Source of the DNA: Flavobacterium okayamense
GTDB taxonomy: Bacteria; Bacteroidota; Bacteroidia; Flavobacteriales; Flavobacteriaceae
Direction: 5' to 3'
Assembly: GCF_019702945.1 (NCBI RefSeq)
Contig: NZ_AP024749.1
Coordinates: forward strand, 496,001-560,000
DNA length: 64,000 nucleotides
This document shows positions 3,482 through 45,131 of the stretch, in pieces. Under the pieces are notes generated by a model. It was not told where the DNA came from, did no database searches, and was given only the letters and a program-made list of their open reading frames with translations. The translations under genes were made by a program, and so were the position numbers. Each line of letters starts with the position of its first letter. The first letter of the stretch is position 1.

Positions 3482-4417
3482 TTAGAAAAATCTTGGTGAA
3501 CTTGAAACCTTCTTAGAGAAGTTAACATCCCACAATAAAATAATCTCGTGTGAAGATGGAGTTGTAACTTTTAAGTCAGAAACAATATGATCATAAGCAT
3601 AACCTATTCTTAAATTAGGTAAAACAGCATAATTAGCCATTGCACCGAAACTATCATCAAGACGATAAGTTGCTCCTACTTCAAATTTATCATTAAATAA
3701 GAAATTAGTCGATAAATCTAAAGATGTAGGCGCACTAAATGCAGACTTCAACATAAAGAAAGGCTTGAATTTAACTTTTTCATTTAAATCAAAAACATAT
3801 CCTCCAGTAAAGAAATAATGAGAAGTTTCTGAACCAAACTCATATTGATCTCCATTTACTGACAAATCTAAATGTTTAGATTTTAACATATTAGGCACTG
3901 AAAATCCAAGGTAATATTTATTTGTATAATAAAACAATCCTGAACCAATGTTAAAGTATGTATTACTGATATTTTCTGAAAATGCTGGATCATCAACATC
4001 CGGAACATAACCATTTCCAATTTCGCTGAATAAACCAACTTTATGTAATGTTAGCCCAGTTTTAATACCAAAAGCTAACTTATGCTCTCCTCCTAAACTT
4101 AGAGTGTAAGAAAAATCACCGTAAATGTTATTTTCTTCTACAGGCCCAATTTTATCAGAAATAACAGACAAACCCAATCCAACATTTTTCCCAACTGGAC
4201 TGTGTCCAAAAAAAGTAGCTGTTGTTGGCGCATCTTCAATTTCTACCCATTGTTTTCGGTAAAGTATACCCAAAGATAAACTTTCTTTAGAACCAGCATA
4301 AGCTGGATTCATTACACTCATATTATACATATATTGAGTATAATGCGGATCTTGTTGAGCGTAACCTTCAAAAAGGGCTCCTGAGGCTAAAAATATAACT
4401 AATAATAGTTTTCTCAT
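3482..4417 (-). CDS. PorP/SprF family type IX secretion membrane protein
   Basis: 311 residues. Signal peptide 1-20 (ends GYAQ) followed by the family opening QQDPHYTQYMYNMSVMNPAYAGS and the block SLGILYRKQWV, then alternating amphipathic strands of an outer-membrane beta-barrel. In Flavobacterium johnsoniae SprF is needed for export and surface attachment of the adhesin SprB, and type B sorting-domain cargo generally needs a partner SprF-like protein encoded next to it. Here the 2020-aa type B adhesin lies immediately upstream and the OmpA protein immediately downstream, so this is predicted to be that adhesin's dedicated partner. A hairpin lies between it and the adhesin gene. Confidence 0.9.
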   Translation of the reverse strand: MRKLLLVIFLASGALFEGYAQQDPHYTQYMYNMSVMNPAYAGSKESLSLGILYRKQWVEIEDAPTTATFFGHSPVGKNVGLGLSVISDKIGPVEENNIYGDFSYTLSLGGEHKLAFGIKTGLTLHKVGLFSEIGNGYVPDVDDPAFSENISNTYFNIGSGLFYYTNKYYLGFSVPNMLKSKHLDLSVNGDQYEFGSETSHYFFTGGYVFDLNEKVKFKPFFMLKSAFSAPTSLDLSTNFLFNDKFEVGATYRLDDSFGAMANYAVLPNLRIGYAYDHIVSDLKVTTPSSHEIILLWDVNFSKKVSSSPRFF

Positions 4418-35649: not shown

Positions 35650-35742
35650 TTATTTAAAATAAATAAACATCCCTAAAGAAAACAAAAGAATATACACCAA
35701 TAGTAGTGTAAACTCAAGTCTTTTATCTTCTGGAATTTTCAT
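35650..35742 (-). CDS. 30-aa single-pass membrane microprotein coupled to a T9SS adhesin
   Basis: Reads MKIPEDKRLEF followed by one hydrophobic helix of about 17 residues and the tail IYFK. Its ATG is two bases after the stop of the 490-aa LamG protein and it is followed within 5 bases by a strong terminator, so it occupies the whole remaining transcript. The same arrangement (LamG adhesin then tiny membrane protein within two bases) occurs at 37557/37555. Too short for homology judgement; the position is the main support. Confidence 0.55.
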   Translation of the reverse strand: MKIPEDKRLEFTLLLVYILLFSLGMFIYFK

Positions 35743-35744
35743 TA

Positions 35745-37217
35745 TTATCTTTTGATTAATTTAAAAGTTTTTAAACCTCCGCTTTGGTTAGTCACCGTAA
35801 GTAAATAAATACCATTAGCATAATTAGATAAATCTAAATTGCTTGAACCAATTGACACTTTAGTAGAAAGCACTTTTTTACCAATCATATCGTAGACAGT
35901 AACTAAGCTTTCTTGTTGAGATGTTATACTAAAAACACCATTTGAAGGATTAGGATAAACAGTTAATATATTATCATCATTAATAGCGAAATCGTTATTA
36001 CTTAATGTAGCACAATTATTTCCAGTTGTTACAATAGAACCCGCTAACCAATTAGAAGTTGCACTGTTTAAGGTAAAATTATTTAAAGTTCCATTATTAC
36101 CATTAGAAGATGTATCTGATAAAGTTGTTTCAGTTGAATTATTTGAGCCATCATTCCCTTGATTGAAATTATAATATGCAACCAATCCAGTTTCTGATCC
36201 ATTTAATTCGCAATCTTTCGAATTATTAATTTCAACATTTGATCTAGCTACATTCCAAAATCTTACATCATCAATATCTCCATGAAATGCTCTTACTGGG
36301 ATATAGGAATCTATTTGACTTCCAATTCTTACATTATCATTATTTGTTGCTAATGGAGTACTTACTGTTTGTGTCCCTTGTAACACACCATCTACATACA
36401 AAGATTTAAACCCATTATTACATGTAACAGCAATGTGATGCCAATTTCCATCATTAACGGAAACTGTAGAAGCTAAATCATCTCCAGGACCTGTACCAAA
36501 TGCTATTAAATTTGTTGAACCAAAACGATGAATTCTTGGGCCTTGCTCTCCTTTTGAAATAACGGTTTGCCATTCTTCTGTAAAAGATGTAACACGTACC
36601 CATGCTTCTATAGAAAAACTAGTAGTAAAATCAAAATTTGATTCATTTGCCAATTCAACTCGATCATTAACCCCATCAAAATTTAAATGTGTTGCTGGTG
36701 ATGCTGGCGGAGAAACAAACGTTTTAAACCAAATATCATAAGTATTATATAATCCTGGGTTCCCACTACCAAAATAATAGCCCCCAGGCCCATAACCTCC
36801 AAAATTTGCGCGAAAATTAATACTTGCTGAGCCTAATCCTCTAAAATCAAAAGTATACATGTTTCCAGCGGTTATACTTACAGGTGAAGATAAAACTATA
36901 GCATACTCTTCTGTTAAGCCCGAAGATGTCGAACTAATATTTAATGTTGTAGTATTTAAAACAGCTCCGGCGTAACCATTACCATTATATATTGTTAACT
37001 GAAAGTCTCCAGGAGTAAAAGCTCCAGTATCACCAAGCCTTAAATTAATTTGACTTAAATCACCTGTGACACCTGCTGTAAAGGACTGTCCTTGAGGATT
37101 CGCTGCATTAGCGCCAGAATCTATACCTGAAGATGACACACTTGACTGATCTAGTGTTTGCCCAAAAGAAAACAAACTAATAAAAATTGCAATTAATAAG
37201 TAAAGTTGCTGTTTCAT
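35745..37217 (-). CDS. T9SS-exported LamG-domain surface protein (type A sorting domain)
   Basis: 490 residues from MKQQLYLLIAIF; the frame continues 9 residues upstream, but the -7 element at 37242-37249 lies over that region, so the shorter start is used. Signal peptide 1-20 (ends SFGQ); an N-terminal beta-sandwich module (about 21-165, GQSFTAGVTGDLSQINLRLG); a LamG/concanavalin-like domain (about 175-355, THLNFDGVNDRVEL); and a type A T9SS sorting domain (about 410-490, VYPNPSNGVFSI to GLKTFKLIKR). Likely a secreted glycan- or protein-binding surface protein. Paralogue of the 1675-aa protein upstream, with the same LytTR-type box. Confidence 0.9.
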   Translation of the reverse strand: MKQQLYLLIAIFISLFSFGQTLDQSSVSSSGIDSGANAANPQGQSFTAGVTGDLSQINLRLGDTGAFTPGDFQLTIYNGNGYAGAVLNTTTLNISSTSSGLTEEYAIVLSSPVSITAGNMYTFDFRGLGSASINFRANFGGYGPGGYYFGSGNPGLYNTYDIWFKTFVSPPASPATHLNFDGVNDRVELANESNFDFTTSFSIEAWVRVTSFTEEWQTVISKGEQGPRIHRFGSTNLIAFGTGPGDDLASTVSVNDGNWHHIAVTCNNGFKSLYVDGVLQGTQTVSTPLATNNDNVRIGSQIDSYIPVRAFHGDIDDVRFWNVARSNVEINNSKDCELNGSETGLVAYYNFNQGNDGSNNSTETTLSDTSSNGNNGTLNNFTLNSATSNWLAGSIVTTGNNCATLSNNDFAINDDNILTVYPNPSNGVFSITSQQESLVTVYDMIGKKVLSTKVSIGSSNLDLSNYANGIYLLTVTNQSGGLKTFKLIKR

Positions 37218-37241: not shown

Positions 37242-37249
37242 CAAACCTA
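37242..37249 (-). promoter_or_regulatory. -7 element of the 490-aa LamG gene
   Basis: TAGGTTTG on the minus strand, 24 bases before the ATG, with only T-rich sequence and no TTG in the -33 region, as expected for an activator-dependent promoter. Confidence 0.65.
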
Positions 37250-37277: not shown

Positions 37278-37308
37278 TGGTGTGAAAGCACGCAAATTTG
37301 TATGTGAA
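37278..37308 (-). promoter_or_regulatory. Predicted LytTR-regulator binding site, copy C
   Basis: Minus strand: TTCACATAC, 13 bp, TTCACACCA (TTCACA repeated at exactly 22-bp period). It ends 28 bp upstream of the -7 element. Same element as 42645-42675 and 45101-45131. Confidence 0.65.
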
Positions 37309-37316
37309 TGATATTT

Positions 37317-37356
37317 AAAAAAAATACCTCAAAAATAAATTTACTTCTGAGGTATT
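37317..37356 (-). terminator. Terminator downstream of the 64-aa membrane protein
   Basis: 8-bp stem AATACCTC/GAGGTATT (37323-37330 and 37349-37356) with an 18-base loop, followed on the minus strand by T8. Confidence 0.65.
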
Positions 37357-37360
37357 AAAA

Positions 37361-37555
37361 TTATTTTGATATGGAAATCTTATTTTTTAAAATATAAAAA
37401 GCATATAGAGCAGCAAATAAAAACAAAACAAACAACCATTGATTAATTGGTGCTGGTGGTGGATCATCATCTGCCGGTGGATCTACAGGTTGTGCTATAA
37501 CAGTTTGGCATATAAAAAAAAGGCCAAGTAAAATTTTTAAACTTATGTTTTTCAT
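37361..37555 (-). CDS. 64-aa mini membrane protein: signal peptide, Pro/Asp-rich linker, C-terminal helix and basic tail
   Basis: Signal peptide about 1-21 (ends VIAQ), linker PVDPPADDDPPPAPINQW, a hydrophobic helix (about 40-57) and tail KNKISISK. The tripartite end (short motif, helix, basic residues) resembles PEP-CTERM/PID-CTERM-like sorting signals and the 67-aa protein at 60997-61200, although here the PID motif reads PIN. Its ATG is one base after the stop of the 1675-aa LamG/RCC1 adhesin, so it is translationally coupled to it. Role is unknown; possibilities are an export or anchoring accessory. Confidence 0.7.
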   Translation of the reverse strand: MKNISLKILLGLFFICQTVIAQPVDPPADDDPPPAPINQWLFVLFLFAALYAFYILKNKISISK

Positions 37556-37556
37556 T

Positions 37557-40500
37557 TTATTTCAATATTTTTTTAGTGAAAACTGAGCCATTTTCATTTG
37601 CAACTCTTACTAATAATACTTGATTCCCAAAGGTATTAGCAATAGAAAATTGATTCGCATTTATTTCATTTTGAGTAAATAATTGTCTTCCTGAAATATC
37701 AAAAATCTCAACTTTACTCAATTCAATTTTCATGTTTTGAATTTGAATTTGATTTGTTCCATCAATAAAAACTTTAAGATTATTCTCCAAATCAATATTA
37801 TCACTAGAAAGAACTGAATTATTAGTATAAACTACTGAAAATCTGTCATTATAAGTTCCGGCAGTTGCATTAAAGATATAGTCTGCTTGTTTAATATTAA
37901 ATCTAATATTTAAAATTTTATCCCAAATAAAAATATCTTGATTGACAAATAATCCATCAAATGAATCTAATGAAATTCTATAATCTCCATCTTGATTGAC
38001 TGTAAAACTTAATGCAACTTCATCACTATCAACAAAGTTTTCACTTCTACCTTGAATTACATATTTTTTATTATCAAAAATTGATGATAAATGAGTAGAC
38101 GAATTTGTGAATAATTCACCATCTATACCTTGATCAAATCCAATAGTAGCTCCGGTCATATAAGCAATCATCATTTGATTATAGTCTTTAGTATCATCAG
38201 ATAAATTTAACCATAAACGATGTCTTTCAATTGTGTTTACTGTTCTAAAGAATTGTCCAAAACTTTCTACTTGTCTTAAACTATTTTTAAATTCTACATT
38301 ACCTACAGAATTTATATTTGTAATAAATCCTTGTCCTACCTGAGTTAACCCGTCAGGCTGTAAGCCACCAGCTGCTGCAGCAACTCCACCCGCTATTGTG
38401 TAAGAAGCGTAGTTATTTAAAGGATAAACACCACCACTTGCAGGAACTGTATGAGTCCAATAATACAGCACATTAACTCCAACATCTTGATTTTCAGATA
38501 TAAATTGAAGATTATCTATTGGTGAAGGATATGGGTTTCCTAATAAATTATAACCTACCGTTACTGGAATTGTAATATCACCATTATTTGGAACTCCTTC
38601 AAAAAGACCACTGAATGGTGATGCTAAAGTTGCATTCCAATTATTTGCCGCTCTTATTAAATATCCTTTACCAGGTGTAAATATTGTAGTACTTGGATCT
38701 GCAACTGAAATCCATGCAGAAGCTGTAGTTGTTCCTGACGGATCATAAGTATAAAAACGATTAGTAAGTGTTAGCGGAGAAAATCCTAATAAATTTTGAT
38801 TAGCAACTGGCGATGACCAAGCTGTGTAATCTAATCTTATAATTGGTGCACTATCACGAATCATTTTTACATTTCCAATATTTGGTATATTACTTACTTG
38901 AACTAAATATGCATTGTTTTGAAATTCTAAATTAGCAGTTGCAGCAACTATAACAGTTCCTTGCACATGTAAAGTTTCATTAGAATTAATTATTACTTCA
39001 GCTGTTCCATTAACCTGAAGAGAACATGCGCTAAAACCAATACCAGTATAATTACCATTAAAAACAACTTGTTTAGTTTCATCTGGAAATCCATTTGACC
39101 ATGAAGAACCGCTCCAAACAGTTGTTGAAGTACACGGACAAGCAATCTGCACAGGAGAATTTCTATTAGTAAAATCTCCTAAACCTAATTGTCCAGCCCA
39201 ATTATTTCCTGTTGACCAAATTTCTCCAACAATATTTAATGCTATTAAAAATCCTTCACCACCATCAACATCATACCAATTTGTAGCTGTTCCAACTTGT
39301 GTTGGCACTAATCTATTAGAATTATCACCTAAACCTAATTGCCCCGAATTATTTCTTCCCCAAGTATATAAAGTTCCATCGCTCTTAATAGCCATACTAT
39401 GAGAATTTGCGCTTATAAATTTATACCAATCTGTAGCTGTTCCTATTTGAGTAAATTCATTTAAATTGGCAGTATTATTCTGTCCTAATTGTCCAAATTG
39501 ATTGTTTCCTGTCCCCCAAAGCGATCCATCAATTTTTTGTGCTAAAGCAAAAGCACCTAATCCTACTTGTACTTTAGACCAATTAGTATCTGTTCCAATT
39601 TGTACAAAACTTAATCTTTGAATATTATCACCTAAACCTAATTGCCCATCAGCATTAGCTCCTGTTCCCCAAAGAGTTCCATTTGATTTAATTGCATAGG
39701 TACTTTGACCTGCACCATTAATGGCAATCCAGTCTGTATCAGTACCTATTTGTGTTGGCACTAGTCTTTGAGTTAAATCTCCCAAACCAAGTTGTCCTTC
39801 ATTATTTCCGCCCCAAACCCATAAAGTTCCATCTGTTTTAATAGCCAAAGAAGTGTTAGATCCACAATCAATTTTATCCCAATCGGTTGCAGTACCAAGT
39901 TGAGTTGGTACATTCCTTTGTGAAGTATCTCCTAAACCTAAATGTCCTTGTGTATTTCTACCCCAAACCCAAAGCGTACCATCTTCTCTTAGGGCTAGAA
40001 CGTGTCTGTCTCCACTAGAAAGTGTTTTCCAATTTGTTGCAGTTCCTATCTGAGTTGGTACTAATCTATTCGAAGTATCCCCTAATCCTAATTGAGCTTC
40101 GGCATTAAAACCCCAAGCCCAAAGCGTACCATCATTTGCAATTGCATACGTTTGGTTTACTCCTGTATAAATATTTTTCCAACAGCCAGAAATTGAAGCA
40201 ATAACTGTAACCACAATCTCGACTCTTTCACTTTCACAACCATTTGTATTTACACTAGATACCCAATATGACATATTACCAGCAGTTGACGTACTTGGTG
40301 TTGGCGCTGTTGTTGAACCTGTTCCTCCTGTTGCTGATGTATACCATAATAAATCTGTGCCGTTTGCTCCAACTGTTGCTGTTAAAGGTGTTGCAGTATC
40401 TCCTTGATTGTAAACCACTGGAGTTGTTACGCCTGGATTACTTGGCATAATTGAACCTGATACAACTGGCGAACCTGCTAACCAATTTGATGTTGCTCCG

Positions 40501-42584
40501 TTTAAGGCAAAATTATTTAAAGTTCCGTTATTACCATTAGAAGACGAATCTAATAAAATTGTTTCTGTTGAATTATTTGAGGCATCATTCCCTTGATTAA
40601 ATTTATAGTAGCTTACTAAACCTGTTTCAGTACCTTCTAGCTCACAATTCATATTATCTTGAATATCCGATTGTGCTCTTGCTATATTCCAAATACGAAC
40701 TTCATCAATTTCTCCATCTAATAATTCTCCCCAAAATGTTGTTCTATAAGTTGAACCAATACCCATTAAGTCACCATTTGTAGCATATGTTTTATTTGTT
40801 GTACCAACATTTACACCATCAACATAAACAGTTAATAAATTACCATCAAAAGTTACTGCTACATGATGCCAATTATTATCATTAATAGATGTAGTAGTGG
40901 TATAATCGTTAAACTCGCCAATTACAAGCACTCTTCCAGAACCATCTAATAAAACACCAAATCTTTGATTAGTAGATTGATTTCCATAATTAACTATTGT
41001 TCCAACATTTGATGTACTTGTCTTAACCCACGCCTCTACTGTTCTAGCACTATTTCCAAAAGGTAATAAATTATTATTAGCAGAAACATAATCATTTACG
41101 CCATCAAAATCTAAATGTGTTGCTGGTGTAACTGAATTTACAGTTACCACAATCTCTACTCTTTCACTTTCACAACCATTTGCGTTAGTTGAAGAAACCC
41201 AGTAAGAAGTAGTGCCTACTGTTGCAGTGCTTGGCGTAGGAGCAGTTGTAGAACCAGTACCACCTGTTGCACTTGTATACCATACTAAGCCTGTTCCATT
41301 TGTGCCAATTGTAGCTGTTAAAGCAGAAGCAGAATCGCCTTGGTCATAAACTATTGGAGTTGTTACTAAGGCATTTGAAGGAACAATAGAGCCAGTAATT
41401 ACAGGAGAACCTGCTAACCAATTTGAAGTTGCTCCGTTTAAGGCAAAATTATTTAAAGTTCCGTTATTACCATTAGAAGACGAATCTAATAAAATTGTTT
41501 CTGTTGAATTATTTGATGCATCATTCCCTTGATTGAAATTATAATAAGACACTAAACCTGTCTCATTACCTTGCAATTCACAGTTCCTAGAGCCATTTAT
41601 TTGGTTTATAGTTCTAGCTATATTCCAAATACGAACTTCATCAATATTTCCTGTATAAAAACGAACGGTGTAATCTGAATTATTACCAATAAATACAGGA
41701 AAATTTGAATTTACAATACTTCCTGTTGCTAGAACTTGATTTTCTAAAACTCCATCAATATATATTTTTATTGAAGTCCCATCATAAACACCTGCCACAT
41801 GATGCCAGTTCCCATCTGTTATTGAAGTAGTAGATACAGCTCCAACTCCTGATGTTCCAGAACAAGTAAAATCTACAGTTCCTGTATTATTTAAATGCAA
41901 CCTCCAACTGTTATCCCCTTTTGTAATTAATGGATCCCATTGTTCTGGCATTACATTTGAATTCATCCAAACTTCGACAGTCATAGCGGTTGTAAAATCA
42001 TATAATGATTCATTTGGCAGCTCTACTCTATCATTTACACCATCAAAATTTAAATGTGTGGCTGGTGATGCTGGCGGAGATACAAACGTTTTAAACCAAA
42101 TATCATAAGTATTATAAAGTCCTGTGTTTCCACTAGCAAAATAATAGCCTCCAGGTCCATAATTTGAAAAATTTAAGCGAAAATTAATACTTGCTGAGCC
42201 TAATCCTCTAAAATCAAAAGTATACATGTTTCCTGCGGTTATACTAACAGGTGAAGAGAGAACAATAGCAAACTCCTCTGTTAATCCCGAAGATGTAGAA
42301 CTAATATTTAATGTTGTAGTATTTAAAACAGCTCCGGCGTAACCATTACCATTATATATTGTTAACTGAAAGTCTCCAGGAGTAAAATTTCCATTATTAC
42401 CAAGCCTTAAACTAATTTGACTTAAATTACCTGTGACACCTGCTGTAAAGGACTGTCCTTGAGGATTTGCTGCATTAGCGCCAGAATCAAAACCTGAAGA
42501 TGATTCACTTGACTGATCTAGTGTTTGCCCAAAAGAAAACAAACTAATAAAAATTGCAATTAACAAGTAAAGCTGTTGTTTCAT
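37557..42584 (-). CDS. Giant T9SS surface protein with LamG, Ig-like and RCC1 repeats (type A sorting domain)
   Basis: 1675 residues from MKQQLYLLIAIF (63 further in-frame residues upstream are rejected because the -7 element and regulatory box lie there). Signal peptide 1-20; N-terminal beta module shared with the 490-aa paralogue (about 21-165); LamG 1 (about 175-385); Ig-like module (about 400-480); LamG 2 (about 490-650); second Ig-like module (about 715-795); about seven RCC1 repeats (about 800-1150; WAWGFNAEAQLGLGD, WVWGRNTQGHLGLGD) that should form a propeller; a long beta-rich adhesin region (about 1155-1560); and a type A T9SS sorting domain (about 1600-1675). Lies directly downstream of the LytTR regulator gene and has its own box and promoter. 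Confidence 0.92.
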   Translation of the reverse strand: MKQQLYLLIAIFISLFSFGQTLDQSSESSSGFDSGANAANPQGQSFTAGVTGNLSQISLRLGNNGNFTPGDFQLTIYNGNGYAGAVLNTTTLNISSTSSGLTEEFAIVLSSPVSITAGNMYTFDFRGLGSASINFRLNFSNYGPGGYYFASGNTGLYNTYDIWFKTFVSPPASPATHLNFDGVNDRVELPNESLYDFTTAMTVEVWMNSNVMPEQWDPLITKGDNSWRLHLNNTGTVDFTCSGTSGVGAVSTTSITDGNWHHVAGVYDGTSIKIYIDGVLENQVLATGSIVNSNFPVFIGNNSDYTVRFYTGNIDEVRIWNIARTINQINGSRNCELQGNETGLVSYYNFNQGNDASNNSTETILLDSSSNGNNGTLNNFALNGATSNWLAGSPVITGSIVPSNALVTTPIVYDQGDSASALTATIGTNGTGLVWYTSATGGTGSTTAPTPSTATVGTTSYWVSSTNANGCESERVEIVVTVNSVTPATHLDFDGVNDYVSANNNLLPFGNSARTVEAWVKTSTSNVGTIVNYGNQSTNQRFGVLLDGSGRVLVIGEFNDYTTTTSINDNNWHHVAVTFDGNLLTVYVDGVNVGTTNKTYATNGDLMGIGSTYRTTFWGELLDGEIDEVRIWNIARAQSDIQDNMNCELEGTETGLVSYYKFNQGNDASNNSTETILLDSSSNGNNGTLNNFALNGATSNWLAGSPVVSGSIMPSNPGVTTPVVYNQGDTATPLTATVGANGTDLLWYTSATGGTGSTTAPTPSTSTAGNMSYWVSSVNTNGCESERVEIVVTVIASISGCWKNIYTGVNQTYAIANDGTLWAWGFNAEAQLGLGDTSNRLVPTQIGTATNWKTLSSGDRHVLALREDGTLWVWGRNTQGHLGLGDTSQRNVPTQLGTATDWDKIDCGSNTSLAIKTDGTLWVWGGNNEGQLGLGDLTQRLVPTQIGTDTDWIAINGAGQSTYAIKSNGTLWGTGANADGQLGLGDNIQRLSFVQIGTDTNWSKVQVGLGAFALAQKIDGSLWGTGNNQFGQLGQNNTANLNEFTQIGTATDWYKFISANSHSMAIKSDGTLYTWGRNNSGQLGLGDNSNRLVPTQVGTATNWYDVDGGEGFLIALNIVGEIWSTGNNWAGQLGLGDFTNRNSPVQIACPCTSTTVWSGSSWSNGFPDETKQVVFNGNYTGIGFSACSLQVNGTAEVIINSNETLHVQGTVIVAATANLEFQNNAYLVQVSNIPNIGNVKMIRDSAPIIRLDYTAWSSPVANQNLLGFSPLTLTNRFYTYDPSGTTTASAWISVADPSTTIFTPGKGYLIRAANNWNATLASPFSGLFEGVPNNGDITIPVTVGYNLLGNPYPSPIDNLQFISENQDVGVNVLYYWTHTVPASGGVYPLNNYASYTIAGGVAAAAGGLQPDGLTQVGQGFITNINSVGNVEFKNSLRQVESFGQFFRTVNTIERHRLWLNLSDDTKDYNQMMIAYMTGATIGFDQGIDGELFTNSSTHLSSIFDNKKYVIQGRSENFVDSDEVALSFTVNQDGDYRISLDSFDGLFVNQDIFIWDKILNIRFNIKQADYIFNATAGTYNDRFSVVYTNNSVLSSDNIDLENNLKVFIDGTNQIQIQNMKIELSKVEIFDISGRQLFTQNEINANQFSIANTFGNQVLLVRVANENGSVFTKKILK
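40471..40598. repeat. 128-bp intragenic direct repeat, copy 1
   Basis: Matches 41407-41534 at about 126 of 128 positions, offset 936 bp (312 codons). It encodes the linker at the end of each LamG unit, showing recent in-frame duplication of a LamG plus Ig-like block. A diverged third copy lies at 36030-36157 in the paralogous gene. Confidence 0.85.
41407..41534. repeat. 128-bp intragenic direct repeat, copy 2
   Basis: Partner of 40471-40598; recombination between the two would remove or add one 312-residue unit in frame. Confidence 0.85.
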
Positions 42585-42607
42585 AAATTTATTTTTAAGT
42601 TTTGAAA

Positions 42608-42615
42608 CAAACCTA
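42608..42615 (-). promoter_or_regulatory. -7 element of the 1675-aa adhesin gene
   Basis: TAGGTTTG on the minus strand, 23 bases before the ATG; no -33 TTG, only an A/T tract. Confidence 0.65.
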
Positions 42616-42644
42616 TTAACTATATTATATTTTTTGAAAAAAAA

Positions 42645-42675
42645 TGGTGTGAAAGCACCCAAGTTTGTATGTGAA
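42645..42675 (-). promoter_or_regulatory. Predicted LytTR-regulator binding site, copy B
   Basis: Minus strand TTCACATAC-N13-TTCACACCA, 22-bp period, 29 bp upstream of the -7 element. It lies six bases after the stop of the LytTR regulator gene. Confidence 0.65.
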
Positions 42676-42681
42676 TAAAAT

Positions 42682-43341
42682 TTAAAAAGAAAAATCGTAT
42701 TTTTTTGAAAATGGAATTTCATGATTTTCAATAAATAAACTTGATTTTGTTTTTTTCTGAATTTTAGAACCATTTACAATGTAAGAACGATGTACTCTAA
42801 AAAAATTTGAATTTGCTATTTCTTCTAAAAAACCTTCTAATGATTGACGAATAGAATATTTTTTTGATGTAGTTTGAATATCTATGTAGTTGTTGTCACT
42901 TTTTATAAATAAAATATCATCATGATTGATTTTTATATAATCGTATCCATCTTTAATTGAAATAATATTCAGTTGTTTCTTTAAAAGCACCAACTTTATT
43001 GCCGCCATTAAATCATCTTCTTTTATTGGCTTAGTTAAATATGTTTCTGGATTAGTTGCTAATGCTTTATTCATTAAAACCTCATCATTTTGTCCTGTAA
43101 GAAAAATAATTGAGGCGTTTTTATTCGTGTTTTTTGCCAATTCAATCCCAGCATTTTCTCCATTTAAATTAATATCCATTAATACAATTTCGGGCTCAAA
43201 GCTTTGAAAAAATTTGACTGCAACTTCGGGCTTATGAGCCATTTCTATATCAGAAAAACCTTTCATTTTTAGAAAGTCTGCAATAAAATCTGCAATTAAT
43301 ATTTCATCTTCAACAATTAGTATTTTAGTATTTAAACTCAT
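42682..43341 (-). CDS. LytTR-family response regulator
   Basis: 219 residues. Receiver domain (1-120) with acidic pocket Glu11/Asp12, phospho-acceptor Asp56 (VLMDINLNGENAG), Thr82 and Lys104 (YLTKPI). LytTR DNA-binding domain (about 125-219) with DDILFIKSDNNYIDI, FFRVHRSYIVN and the C-terminal IPFSKKYDF. Members bind pairs of direct repeats spaced by about two helical turns. Starts ten bases after the histidine kinase stop, so both are made from one mRNA. The next genes on the strand carry the predicted binding sites. Confidence 0.93.
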   Translation of the reverse strand: MSLNTKILIVEDEILIADFIADFLKMKGFSDIEMAHKPEVAVKFFQSFEPEIVLMDINLNGENAGIELAKNTNKNASIIFLTGQNDEVLMNKALATNPETYLTKPIKEDDLMAAIKLVLLKKQLNIISIKDGYDYIKINHDDILFIKSDNNYIDIQTTSKKYSIRQSLEGFLEEIANSNFFRVHRSYIVNGSKIQKKTKSSLFIENHEIPFSKKYDFSF

Positions 43342-43351
43342 TATTTTAAGT

Positions 43352-45049
43352 TTATAGTGATTTAGTAAATGTAAACTGAAACCCGCTTTTATTTTCTATA
43401 CAACAATCTACTTCTAATTGCCTGCATAGTTGATGAATTAGTTTGGGCTTAGGAATTGTTTTAGTTAAAATTGAATTTCCATTGTCTTTGTAATAAAATT
43501 GGATTTGATTCTCTTCAACTTTTAAGATAAAATTAATTTCTTTTTTTTCTTGATCAGTAAAAGCGTGTTTGATTGAATTTATATATAATTCAGTTAGAAT
43601 TAGTCCAAAATATAAAGCATAATCGATTTTTACAAGTATTGAAACCGCACTTATATTTGATTGAATTTTATTTTCATTAAATATATCTGAAAAGCTAAAA
43701 TGCACATCAAAAAGATAATTTCTTAAATCTATTTGCTGCTTATTTTTAGATTTATATAGCTGTTTGTGCAAGGTAGCAATTGAATTGATTTTTTTTAATA
43801 TTTTTTCAAATTCAATTTTCTCAGTATTATTTAATTTTTCTTGTTGATTTTTAATTAAAATCAGAATTAACTGTAAATTATTATTAATTCTATGACTTGC
43901 CTCACTTAATAAAAACTCATTTTCTGCAGACAAAATTCGAAGTTCATTATTAGATTTTTTCTCTCTTTTGAAAAAATATGTCAATGTAAGAATTCCGATA
44001 GTTACTAAAATAAAAATGATAAAAACCAACCAAAACTTTTTTGAACTATTTTCAATTTCAAGATTTTGAATTTTGATCTTGTTTTCATTTTCTTGAATTT
44101 GTTTTTCTTTTTCCGCTAAATCATATTTTTTTTCGAGCTTATTAAGTTTAAAATAGACTTCTTGATTATTAATGTCTTGAGTATATTTGTAAACTTTATC
44201 GGCTGCATATAATGCTTTTTTAATTTGGTTTGTTTCTTTATAGTATCCCTTTATTTGTAGATAAAAACTACATTTTTGTCTTATGTTTGATCCACTGTCA
44301 ACTTTTTCAATTAATTTTTCTAATATTTCAACTGCTTTTTTATTATCATTTCTATATCGCGCATAAAGTGCTGCCAAATTATAGGAAATATCAATTTCTG
44401 CATTTAATAATTTGTGTTTTTGAGCATACTTTAAAGCTATCTTATATTTAGCAAACGCCTTATTTCTATCACCTTTATAATCTTCAATTTGAGCAACTTC
44501 ATTTAAGGTATAAGCAATAATTTCTTTGTTGTTAATTTGCTTTTCTAAACTAATAATTTGCTTCGCTATTTGTTTTATAATTTCTAAAGTATCTTTGCTT
44601 CCATGATGATAACCATTAAAAATTGCCATTTTTCTGTTTAAAGCATAGGCAACAATATCTTTATTCTTAATTTTATCAAGATTGAATTTTTCAATATTTA
44701 AAAGACAAGTGTCTGCTTTTTTTCTTTCACCAAAGTATCGATAAAACTCAGTTTTAAGTGTATATGTGTAAAGTAAACTATCATCAATTTTTCTGTTTCG
44801 GTAATCATTTTCTGCTTTAGTAATATAATAAAAACTTGAATCTGATATATTTTGATATTTCAAAATAGTTGAATATAAAAGATGGTATTTAGATTTATTA
44901 CTTTTGGCTTTACGAATTGCAATTTGAATAGATGATGTAGCCTCTTCTATTTGATTGTTTTGTAAATAAACAACAGCGTTATTGTATTCAGTTTTTTGAG
45001 AGAAAATTGAAAAAGATAAAAACAAGAAAAGTAAAACTACTCTCTTCAT
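43352..45049 (-). CDS. TPR-containing sensor histidine kinase (HisKA_2 type)
   Basis: 565 residues. Signal peptide 1-18 (ends IFSQ); periplasmic TPR-like helical region (about 20-300); coiled coil (about 300-335); membrane helix 338-360; kinase core. Phospho-acceptor His386 in LSEASHRINNNLQL (HisKA_2 motif), N box with Asn491 (LTELYINSIKHAF) and a short G box KDNGNS (521-526). The TPR sensor plus HisKA_2 plus LytTR partner is a recurring Bacteroidota arrangement; the stimulus is unknown. First gene of the regulator operon, preceded by a copy of the repeat box, so probably autoregulated. Confidence 0.92.
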   Translation of the reverse strand: MKRVVLLFLFLSFSIFSQKTEYNNAVVYLQNNQIEEATSSIQIAIRKAKSNKSKYHLLYSTILKYQNISDSSFYYITKAENDYRNRKIDDSLLYTYTLKTEFYRYFGERKKADTCLLNIEKFNLDKIKNKDIVAYALNRKMAIFNGYHHGSKDTLEIIKQIAKQIISLEKQINNKEIIAYTLNEVAQIEDYKGDRNKAFAKYKIALKYAQKHKLLNAEIDISYNLAALYARYRNDNKKAVEILEKLIEKVDSGSNIRQKCSFYLQIKGYYKETNQIKKALYAADKVYKYTQDINNQEVYFKLNKLEKKYDLAEKEKQIQENENKIKIQNLEIENSSKKFWLVFIIFILVTIGILTLTYFFKREKKSNNELRILSAENEFLLSEASHRINNNLQLILILIKNQQEKLNNTEKIEFEKILKKINSIATLHKQLYKSKNKQQIDLRNYLFDVHFSFSDIFNENKIQSNISAVSILVKIDYALYFGLILTELYINSIKHAFTDQEKKEINFILKVEENQIQFYYKDNGNSILTKTIPKPKLIHQLCRQLEVDCCIENKSGFQFTFTKSL

Positions 45050-45065
45050 AATTTAAATTAAACTA

Positions 45066-45073
45066 TAAAATTA
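45066..45073 (-). promoter_or_regulatory. Probable -7 element of the kinase-regulator operon
   Basis: TAATTTTA on the minus strand, matching TAnnTTTG at all but the last position; located 27 bp downstream of the direct-repeat box and 16 bases before the kinase ATG. Confidence 0.45.
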
Positions 45074-45100
45074 ATTCATTTTACTTTACAAATAAAAAAA

Positions 45101-45131
45101 TGATGTAAAAGCAGTTAAGTTTGTATGTAAA
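45101..45131 (-). promoter_or_regulatory. Predicted LytTR-regulator binding site, copy A
   Basis: Minus strand TTTACATAC-N13-TTTACATCA. The 8-mer TTTTACAT is repeated exactly with a 22-bp period. The spacer shares AAACTT and TGCT with the other two copies, although surrounding sequence has diverged. Confidence 0.65.

Follow-up and report, generated by a model that had tools for sequence, protein, structure and literature searches.

A candidate LytTR operator at promoters of T9SS surface proteins in Flavobacterium

Introduction

How is an individual T9SS surface protein turned on? To our knowledge little is known of this, and the control of T9SS treated in the literature that we found, in so far as it was accessible, concerns the secretion machinery. 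The question is raised by a locus of Flavobacterium okayamense in which one 31-bp element, here called the box, stands before a two-component kinase–regulator operon and before the genes of two secreted proteins. The window is the whole stretch of 64,000 nucleotides that was analysed. An original prediction had assigned the box to the LytTR regulator encoded beside it.

Results

Three copies of the box in the window

Three elements on the minus strand, at 37278–37308, 42645–42675 and 45101–45131, fit TTyACATAC-N13-TTyACAyCA with no mismatch, exactly where they had been reported. With up to three mismatches allowed, the window holds five matches, whereas 100 shuffled versions average 0.90 and never exceed 4. 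A longer consensus extended over the conserved linker, TTYACATACAAAYTTNNNTGCTTTYACAYCA, matches these three sites and no others in the 2,781,077-base genome (up to three mismatches); the reversed-consensus control has none genome-wide.

The copy at 45101–45131 (TTTACATACAAACTTAACTGCTTTTACATCA, from the pattern match) lies upstream of the kinase gene. That at 42645–42675 follows the stop codon of the regulator gene, a position conserved across the family, and precedes the gene of a 1675-aa secreted protein (37557–42584, minus strand) in which domain searches find two LamG domains, Ig_7, RCC1 repeats and a T9SS C-terminal signal. The copy at 37278–37308 precedes the gene of a 490-aa secreted protein (35745–37217, minus strand), which by the same searches has LamG and a T9SS type A tail; the 60 bp downstream of this box are a near copy of those before the 1675-aa gene.

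Pairwise, the three boxes are identical at 24–29 of 31 positions. The two adhesin copies agree in 57 of 61 aligned downstream columns, and their shared flank is confined to the downstream side. The kinase copy agrees with them in 40–42 of 67–68 downstream columns, where random 60-mers reach at most 0.61, and yet its box is 24–25/31 identical to theirs. The claim of a flanking duplication in the adhesin copies but not in the kinase copy is thus borne out.

By eye, the half-sites TTCACATAC and TTCACACCA of the window agree at six of nine positions, and TTCGTCCAC and TTCGTCCCA at seven of nine. The earlier description, two 9-mers with a 13-bp gap, holds for the window as a direct repeat, but it is too narrow for the family: the element is more than its 9-mers, with an ACAAA core that is identical in all 22 boxes used below for training, and the usual spacer is 12 bp, the extra base occurring among those 22 only in the window and in the sister MAG M30B46 (locus L004).

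Past each box on the minus strand lies a -7 element: TAGGTTTG at 42608–42615 before the 1675-aa gene and at 37242–37249 before the 490-aa gene, and putatively TAATTTTA at 45066–45073 before the kinase gene. The intervals of 29, 28 and 27 bp, respectively, are those originally given; the accompanying form TAnnTTTG fails at the kinase promoter, where the element is TAATTTTA. Counted from the ACAAA core, the distances are 53, 52 and 51 nt, the last being the family standard.

The kinase–regulator pair

The sensor histidine kinase (565 aa; 43352–45049, minus strand) has a signal-peptide-like start, one strong TM segment at residues 335–362 and a HisKA_2 domain (PF07568, E 2.9e-13). A weaker second hydropathic stretch, 466–486, lies inside the kinase part, and the TPR label of the N-terminal region comes from the original prediction and one NCBIfam match below cut-off. 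Because of the signal-peptide-like start and the single TM segment, the kinase probably senses in the periplasm.

The response regulator (219 aa; 42682–43341, minus strand) combines a receiver (PF00072, E 9.7e-19) with a LytTR domain (PF04397, E 5.5e-18), the latter at 65.4 bits against a Pfam cut-off of 22.6. The motif FhRhHRS, which contacts DNA in AgrA (PMC4227749, in excerpt), reads FFRVHRS here; F180 and H184 are invariant among 32 regulator sequences and S186 is kept in at least 90%. The AlphaFold model (pLDDT 88.6) has as its best full-length fold match ComE (4cbv; about 236 columns, E 4.4e-12) at a TM-score of 0.47, a low value that is expected if the domain orientation differs.

That this is the sole LytTR protein of the window is correct as a fact. 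As an argument it is weak, since the whole genome has 10 LytTR-domain matches, nine besides this regulator; the strong argument is co-occurrence across genomes.

Co-occurrence of box and regulator in the genus

Among 398 Flavobacterium genomes the regulator is matched in 38 at E ≤ 1e-30 and in 25 at E ≤ 1e-50. The latter was taken as the ortholog line post hoc, after the gap from 3.3e-51 to 4.2e-40 had been seen, and the 13 weaker matches are counted among the 373 genomes without a close ortholog. The exact window consensus proved unfit as a search tool, recovering only the window copies in 60 genomes including its own. As the box diverges, it was replaced by a sequence-only model, R1, built from 22 boxes that directly follow the regulator gene and containing no -7 element; L054 (G300, a poor fit with ACATAAA) and the near duplicates L061 and L062 were omitted from training. 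The scan of the 398 genomes used stricter filters for large sets.

At E ≤ 1e-4, R1 finds the box in 21 of the 25 genomes that have a close ortholog of the regulator and in none of the 373 others. The absence of any enrichment near orthologous genes had been named as grounds for abandoning the prediction, and within the genus the opposite is seen. At E ≤ 1e-3 there are 38 matches, of which G125 has one (9.2e-4) and the 25 regulator genomes the other 37. Eighteen are training sites, and 19 of the other 20 fall in the 25 regulator genomes; these non-training matches include the box of G236, identical to a training box, and near copies such as that of the window's 490-aa gene, and the sites are not independent, the species being related. 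From a wider set of 68 R1 matches 43 were read; the 25 unread all have E ≥ 0.013, and eight of them, all in G255, are alike in score and span and were regarded as a repeat.

The regulator genomes missed at 1e-4 are G113 (E 0.0011), G300, G400 and G353. The post-regulator boxes of the last three were recognised by eye only, that of G300 as an imperfect candidate because of its ACATAAA core. By eye a box follows the regulator gene in 25 of 25 genomes, including G192 and the divergent G155, G400 and G353. In 22 of these 25 loci 7–14 nt separate its core from the preceding regulator stop; in the remaining three the distance is 28, 46 and 62 nt. The DNA upstream of the kinase varies between species groups, yet the box follows the regulator in all 25. 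At a second LytTR locus of G255 (L154), none was recognised by eye.

Promoter spacing was assessed at 48 strong sites, 42 from Flavobacterium and six from other genera; a site in G359, where N follows the box, was excluded, and seven weak hits served separately as a comparison group. At 40 of the 48 strong sites the distance from the ACAAA core to TAnnTTT(G/A) is exactly 51 nt, and at 46 it falls within 48–53 nt, the exceptions being L005 (F. jejuense) and G113a. The strict form TAnnTTTG occurs in the same range at 35. None of the seven weak hits has a -7 element at the right spacing, and these (G125, G126, G312, G397, G281_C14, G222_2716 and G300_1396) were set aside as chance matches. Since R1 holds no -7 information, the spacing is an independent sign of function.

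Genes that follow the box

The survey of targets took in the 41 strong sites of Flavobacterium other than the kinase copy. An ORF of at least 75 aa lies within 300 nt at 36 of these sites; the other five have none. Thirty of the 36 first genes (thus 30/41 sites) match the T9SS tail TIGR04183 at E ≤ 0.01 in their last 120 residues, although not all 30 necessarily exceed the curated cut-off. By their sequences, the remaining six comprise two genes incomplete in the analysed stretch, an 80-aa frame, an 89-aa protein, an Lnt-like gene and an AraC regulator. Tail matches number only 34–102 per whole genome in five genomes, 41 in that of the window. Thus the T9SS class is strongly over-represented at box sites, and the regulator would serve only a small part of the cargo.

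At L044 (9757–9787, in G255) the box precedes the AraC-type regulator gene, which is followed by a 1758-aa secreted-looking protein, an arrangement that could possibly form a regulatory relay.

The kinase-promoter copy

A box before the kinase gene occurs in the window and in L004, where the regulator is 93% identical and a second box lies after the regulator gene, before a LamG–RCC1 adhesin of other architecture. F. jejuense (L005; regulator 67% identical) has a degenerate candidate upstream of its kinase at 3610, TTCAATACAAATTTTACAATTCACAACA, with TACATTTG about 49 nt from the core by eye, which suggests that autoregulation may extend across this subclade. Before other kinases no box was found by eye or by R1. 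This absence is not firm, because R1 is a poor detector of kinase copies, that of the window itself scoring just 10.4 bits, and diverged copies could escape it.

The autoregulated switch originally proposed is therefore kept in part. An operator-like box does precede the pair's own operon in the window and L004, for which autoregulation is predicted, and perhaps in L005, but the kinase copy is not general in the family. Autoregulation looks like a lineage trait.

A 30-aa peptide and other small proteins

Two nucleotides past the stop of the 490-aa gene starts a 30-aa peptide with a single TM segment (MKIPEDKRLEFTLLLVYILLFSLGMFIYFK; 35650–35742, minus strand), with relatives in 15 other loci. 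Such ORFs, of 30 codons (31 in one), follow the T9SS gene in many box operons, encode one TM segment and share the consensus KYKLExxLxxxY, and are present in about half of these genomes. A ten-member profile run on 4262 small ORFs of the analysed loci gave 15 scores of 61–81, from the ten seeds, one sequence identical to a seed and four new ones; the next best score was 7.9. In 13 of 16 cases the offset of the peptide's start from a T9SS-like stop is -1 or +2 nt, and translation of the peptide would usually be coupled to that of the T9SS gene. In L005 and L068 no larger gene separates it from the preceding box, and in L049 a run of N intervenes. Of its codon positions the second changes least (for example 12/4/16 changes at positions 1/2/3 between the window and L005).

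Across the 398 genomes the profile has 14 matches at E ≤ 1e-10, spread over 13 genomes that all have the regulator; each of these matches is a training sequence. Second-tier matches, at about 1e-7 to 1e-4, occur in other genomes too. Sixteen such places were read, with T9SS assignments made by eye except at L148: seven abut a T9SS-like stop within a few nucleotides, two lie 26 and 163 nt after one, three stand just before a T9SS-like gene of about 160 aa, one follows a LytTR regulator, and three are ambiguous. Pfam and NCBIfam offer no convincing family for the peptide, the best matches (E 0.0096 and 0.037) being to single members.

The genome of the window holds two peptides of about 30 aa, that at 35650–35742 (minus strand) and that of L148 (G000:C1:2719612-2719686), each directly after a T9SS-tail gene. 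Elsewhere in Flavobacterium, related peptides of 28–31 aa stand after T9SS-like genes at L145, L146, L147, L151 and L153. Two of the 16 second-tier places, L154 (G255:C1:1096500-1104500) and L157 (G301:C1:377000-385000), adjoin a different kinase and LytTR-like pair together with T9SS-like genes, a similar architecture with another kinase type.

A second class of small proteins also lies beside box genes, marked by a signal-peptide-like start, a PxPI(N/D) or PIK stretch and a C-terminal TM segment. In the window it is represented by a 64-aa protein (37361–37555, minus strand) that starts 1 nt past the adhesin stop, has a PxPIN stretch and matches no Pfam or NCBIfam family at E ≤ 1e-3. Other members are a 74-aa protein in L067, 72 nt downstream of a 2196-aa gene, and an 89-aa protein in L116. 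We take the class to resemble sorting signals of the PID-CTERM type.

Box and regulator outside the genus

A regulator search of 299 family genomes (E ≤ 1e-40) gave, besides the genome of the window, six loci in five other genera. Read by eye, all six have a box, a -7-like element and then a secreted-looking protein. R1 scores 24.8 bits at L176, 13.8 at L179, 11.0 at L178, 8.8 at L175 and a partial 4.7 at L177; the site of L180 has E 0.0029. At E ≤ 0.005 R1 matches four of the six genomes with the regulator, but also six of the 293 without it: G476 (2.0e-5), G595 (4.6e-4), G589 (8.4e-4), G474, G523 and G536. Tight co-occurrence is therefore a genus-level result. Outside Flavobacterium the expected enrichment is seen at 6/6 loci, but there it rests more on reading by eye, and similar boxes may serve other regulators. 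More distant regulators, 31–36% identical, in Roseivirga, a Cytophagales MAG and Dyadobacter (L006–L010) have no R1 match at their loci.

The box-like sites of G476 and G595 precede 107-aa T9SS-tail genes. In both loci (L181 in G476, TTTCACCTACAAAATTCGGTGTTTCACAACA; L182 in G595) a TonB-receptor-like gene is followed by a tandem pair of short T9SS-tail-only proteins, with the element between them; the genera concerned gave no regulator ortholog at E ≤ 1e-40. The element perhaps belongs to another LytTR regulon.

Discussion

Assignment of the box

The box is probably a LytTR operator of the adjoining kinase–regulator pair, one that likely activates a few T9SS surface proteins. This reading is supported by sequence, by co-occurrence, by constant promoter geometry and by the class of target. 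The box is assigned to this regulator because the protein is of the receiver–LytTR type, its model is ComE-like, the FhRhHRS motif is present, and the geometry is that published for LytTR sites. Those comprise two 9-mers, mostly with a 12-bp spacer and in a minority with 11 or 13, upstream of the promoter (PMC6193735, in excerpt); with a spacer of 13 in the window and 12 in most boxes, the LytTR geometry originally proposed lies within that range. Binding by this regulator, activation, the signal and the role of the peptide are what we infer.

A mechanism can be proposed on this basis. The membrane-anchored histidine kinase, probably sensing in the periplasm, would phosphorylate the LytTR regulator, a dimer of which would bind both half-sites on one face of the DNA, some 28 bp before the -7 element, and would then probably recruit RNA polymerase. 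The regulon of each genome would comprise a small number of surface proteins exported by the T9SS, two in the present case, with the coupled 30-aa membrane peptide where it is present. The promoter directly after the regulator gene is the common and probably the ancestral target; in the window lineage the kinase operon also carries the box, hence the predicted autoregulation.

It is conceivable, though unlikely, that the box is the operator of a different regulator, whether of the LytTR type or not, that merely co-occurs with the pair. The 10 LytTR-domain matches in the genome leave room for one, and G476, G595 and, with weaker box-like sites, four more family genomes lack the ortholog, as does G125 with its weak hit. 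Against this stand the 373 Flavobacterium genomes without a close ortholog, in which no match reaches 1e-4, and the presence of the box after this very regulator in all 25 genomes though the DNA upstream of the kinase differs.

The regulator might instead bind the box and repress, or change direction between promoters. Sequence cannot tell direction, and AgrA itself represses bsaA (PMC4227749, in excerpt). The AgrA site at bsaA differs in placement, however, lying downstream of the promoter (PMC4227749, in excerpt), whereas the whole box precedes the -7 element at a fixed distance, as activating LytTR sites do (PMC4227749 and PMC6193735, both in excerpt); repression thus seems quite improbable.

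Two further readings have very little to recommend them. The copies could be left over from a duplication of promoter DNA and regulate nothing, as the duplicated downstream stretch of the adhesin copies might suggest, but this is contradicted by the kinase copy, which shares the box alone, and by the survival of boxes in several genera where the flanks have changed and the -7 spacing has not. That the element acts in RNA, as a terminator or leader after the regulator gene, would fit its usual place just past the stop codon, but it lies upstream of a -7 element at constant spacing and is also found away from the regulator gene.

A possible surface-coat cassette

Under the preferred reading, a LytTR operator of the adjoining pair, the operator is readable, so that the regulon can be listed in flavobacterial genomes that have the pair, and a sensor is tied to defined surface proteins. 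More tentatively, the box may mark a Flavobacteriaceae surface-coat cassette with interchangeable targets, made up of the LytTR pair, changing T9SS proteins and a 30-aa peptide produced only alongside cargo; the peptide might then signal to the kinase, or else to the secretion motor, that cargo is being made. This is a doubtful but possible reading, and if it is true there is a family of T9SS-linked microproteins, none of which is described in the literature searched. The peptide may be an overlooked piece of T9SS biology, since it is very short and has no convincing curated family match. The same literature, a partial search in which subscription titles are thinly covered, yielded no account of the box motif, the peptide or a T9SS cargo gene under LytTR control; LytTR proteins are mentioned without targets in the portions seen of PMC10197871, PMC5395568, PMC10057207 and PMC7440613.

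Comparison with known systems

The pair resembles AgrA, ComE, YpdB and BtsR, and the LRS proteins HdrR and BrsR, in joining a receiver to a LytTR domain with FhRhHRS and in its direct repeats of about 9 bp set 11–13 bp apart. As in other LytTR systems the site is upstream of the promoter, and in the window lineage there is an autoregulatory copy, if the prediction holds; LytTR sites of LRS systems are autoregulatory (PMC6193735, in excerpt). The half-site seems to differ. It is TTCRTMYAC-like with an ACAAA core rather than clearly of the ACCRCTTAY type tabulated for LRS systems, for which working sites that diverge are also described (PMC6193735, in excerpt). By eye, TTCACATAC agrees with the LRS-type ACCACTTAC at 6/9 positions and TTCGTCCAC at 3/9. 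Unlike these systems, the present one has a HisKA_2 kinase with one TM segment, T9SS targets and a site stereotyped after the regulator gene.

Small membrane peptides such as MgrB modulate sensor kinases. The 30-aa peptide is like MgrB, by description, in being short, with one TM segment and predicted two-component control. It is unlike peptides of that type in its coupling to T9SS cargo genes, and its action on the kinase is conjecture.

As in PorXY–SigP of Porphyromonas, so far as the accessible text describes it, two-component control would be linked to T9SS. PorX, as far as we know, has no LytTR domain. The PorXY–SigP cascade is reported to concern expression of the T9SS component proteins (PMC4800418), whereas the targets of the system described here would be individual cargo proteins.
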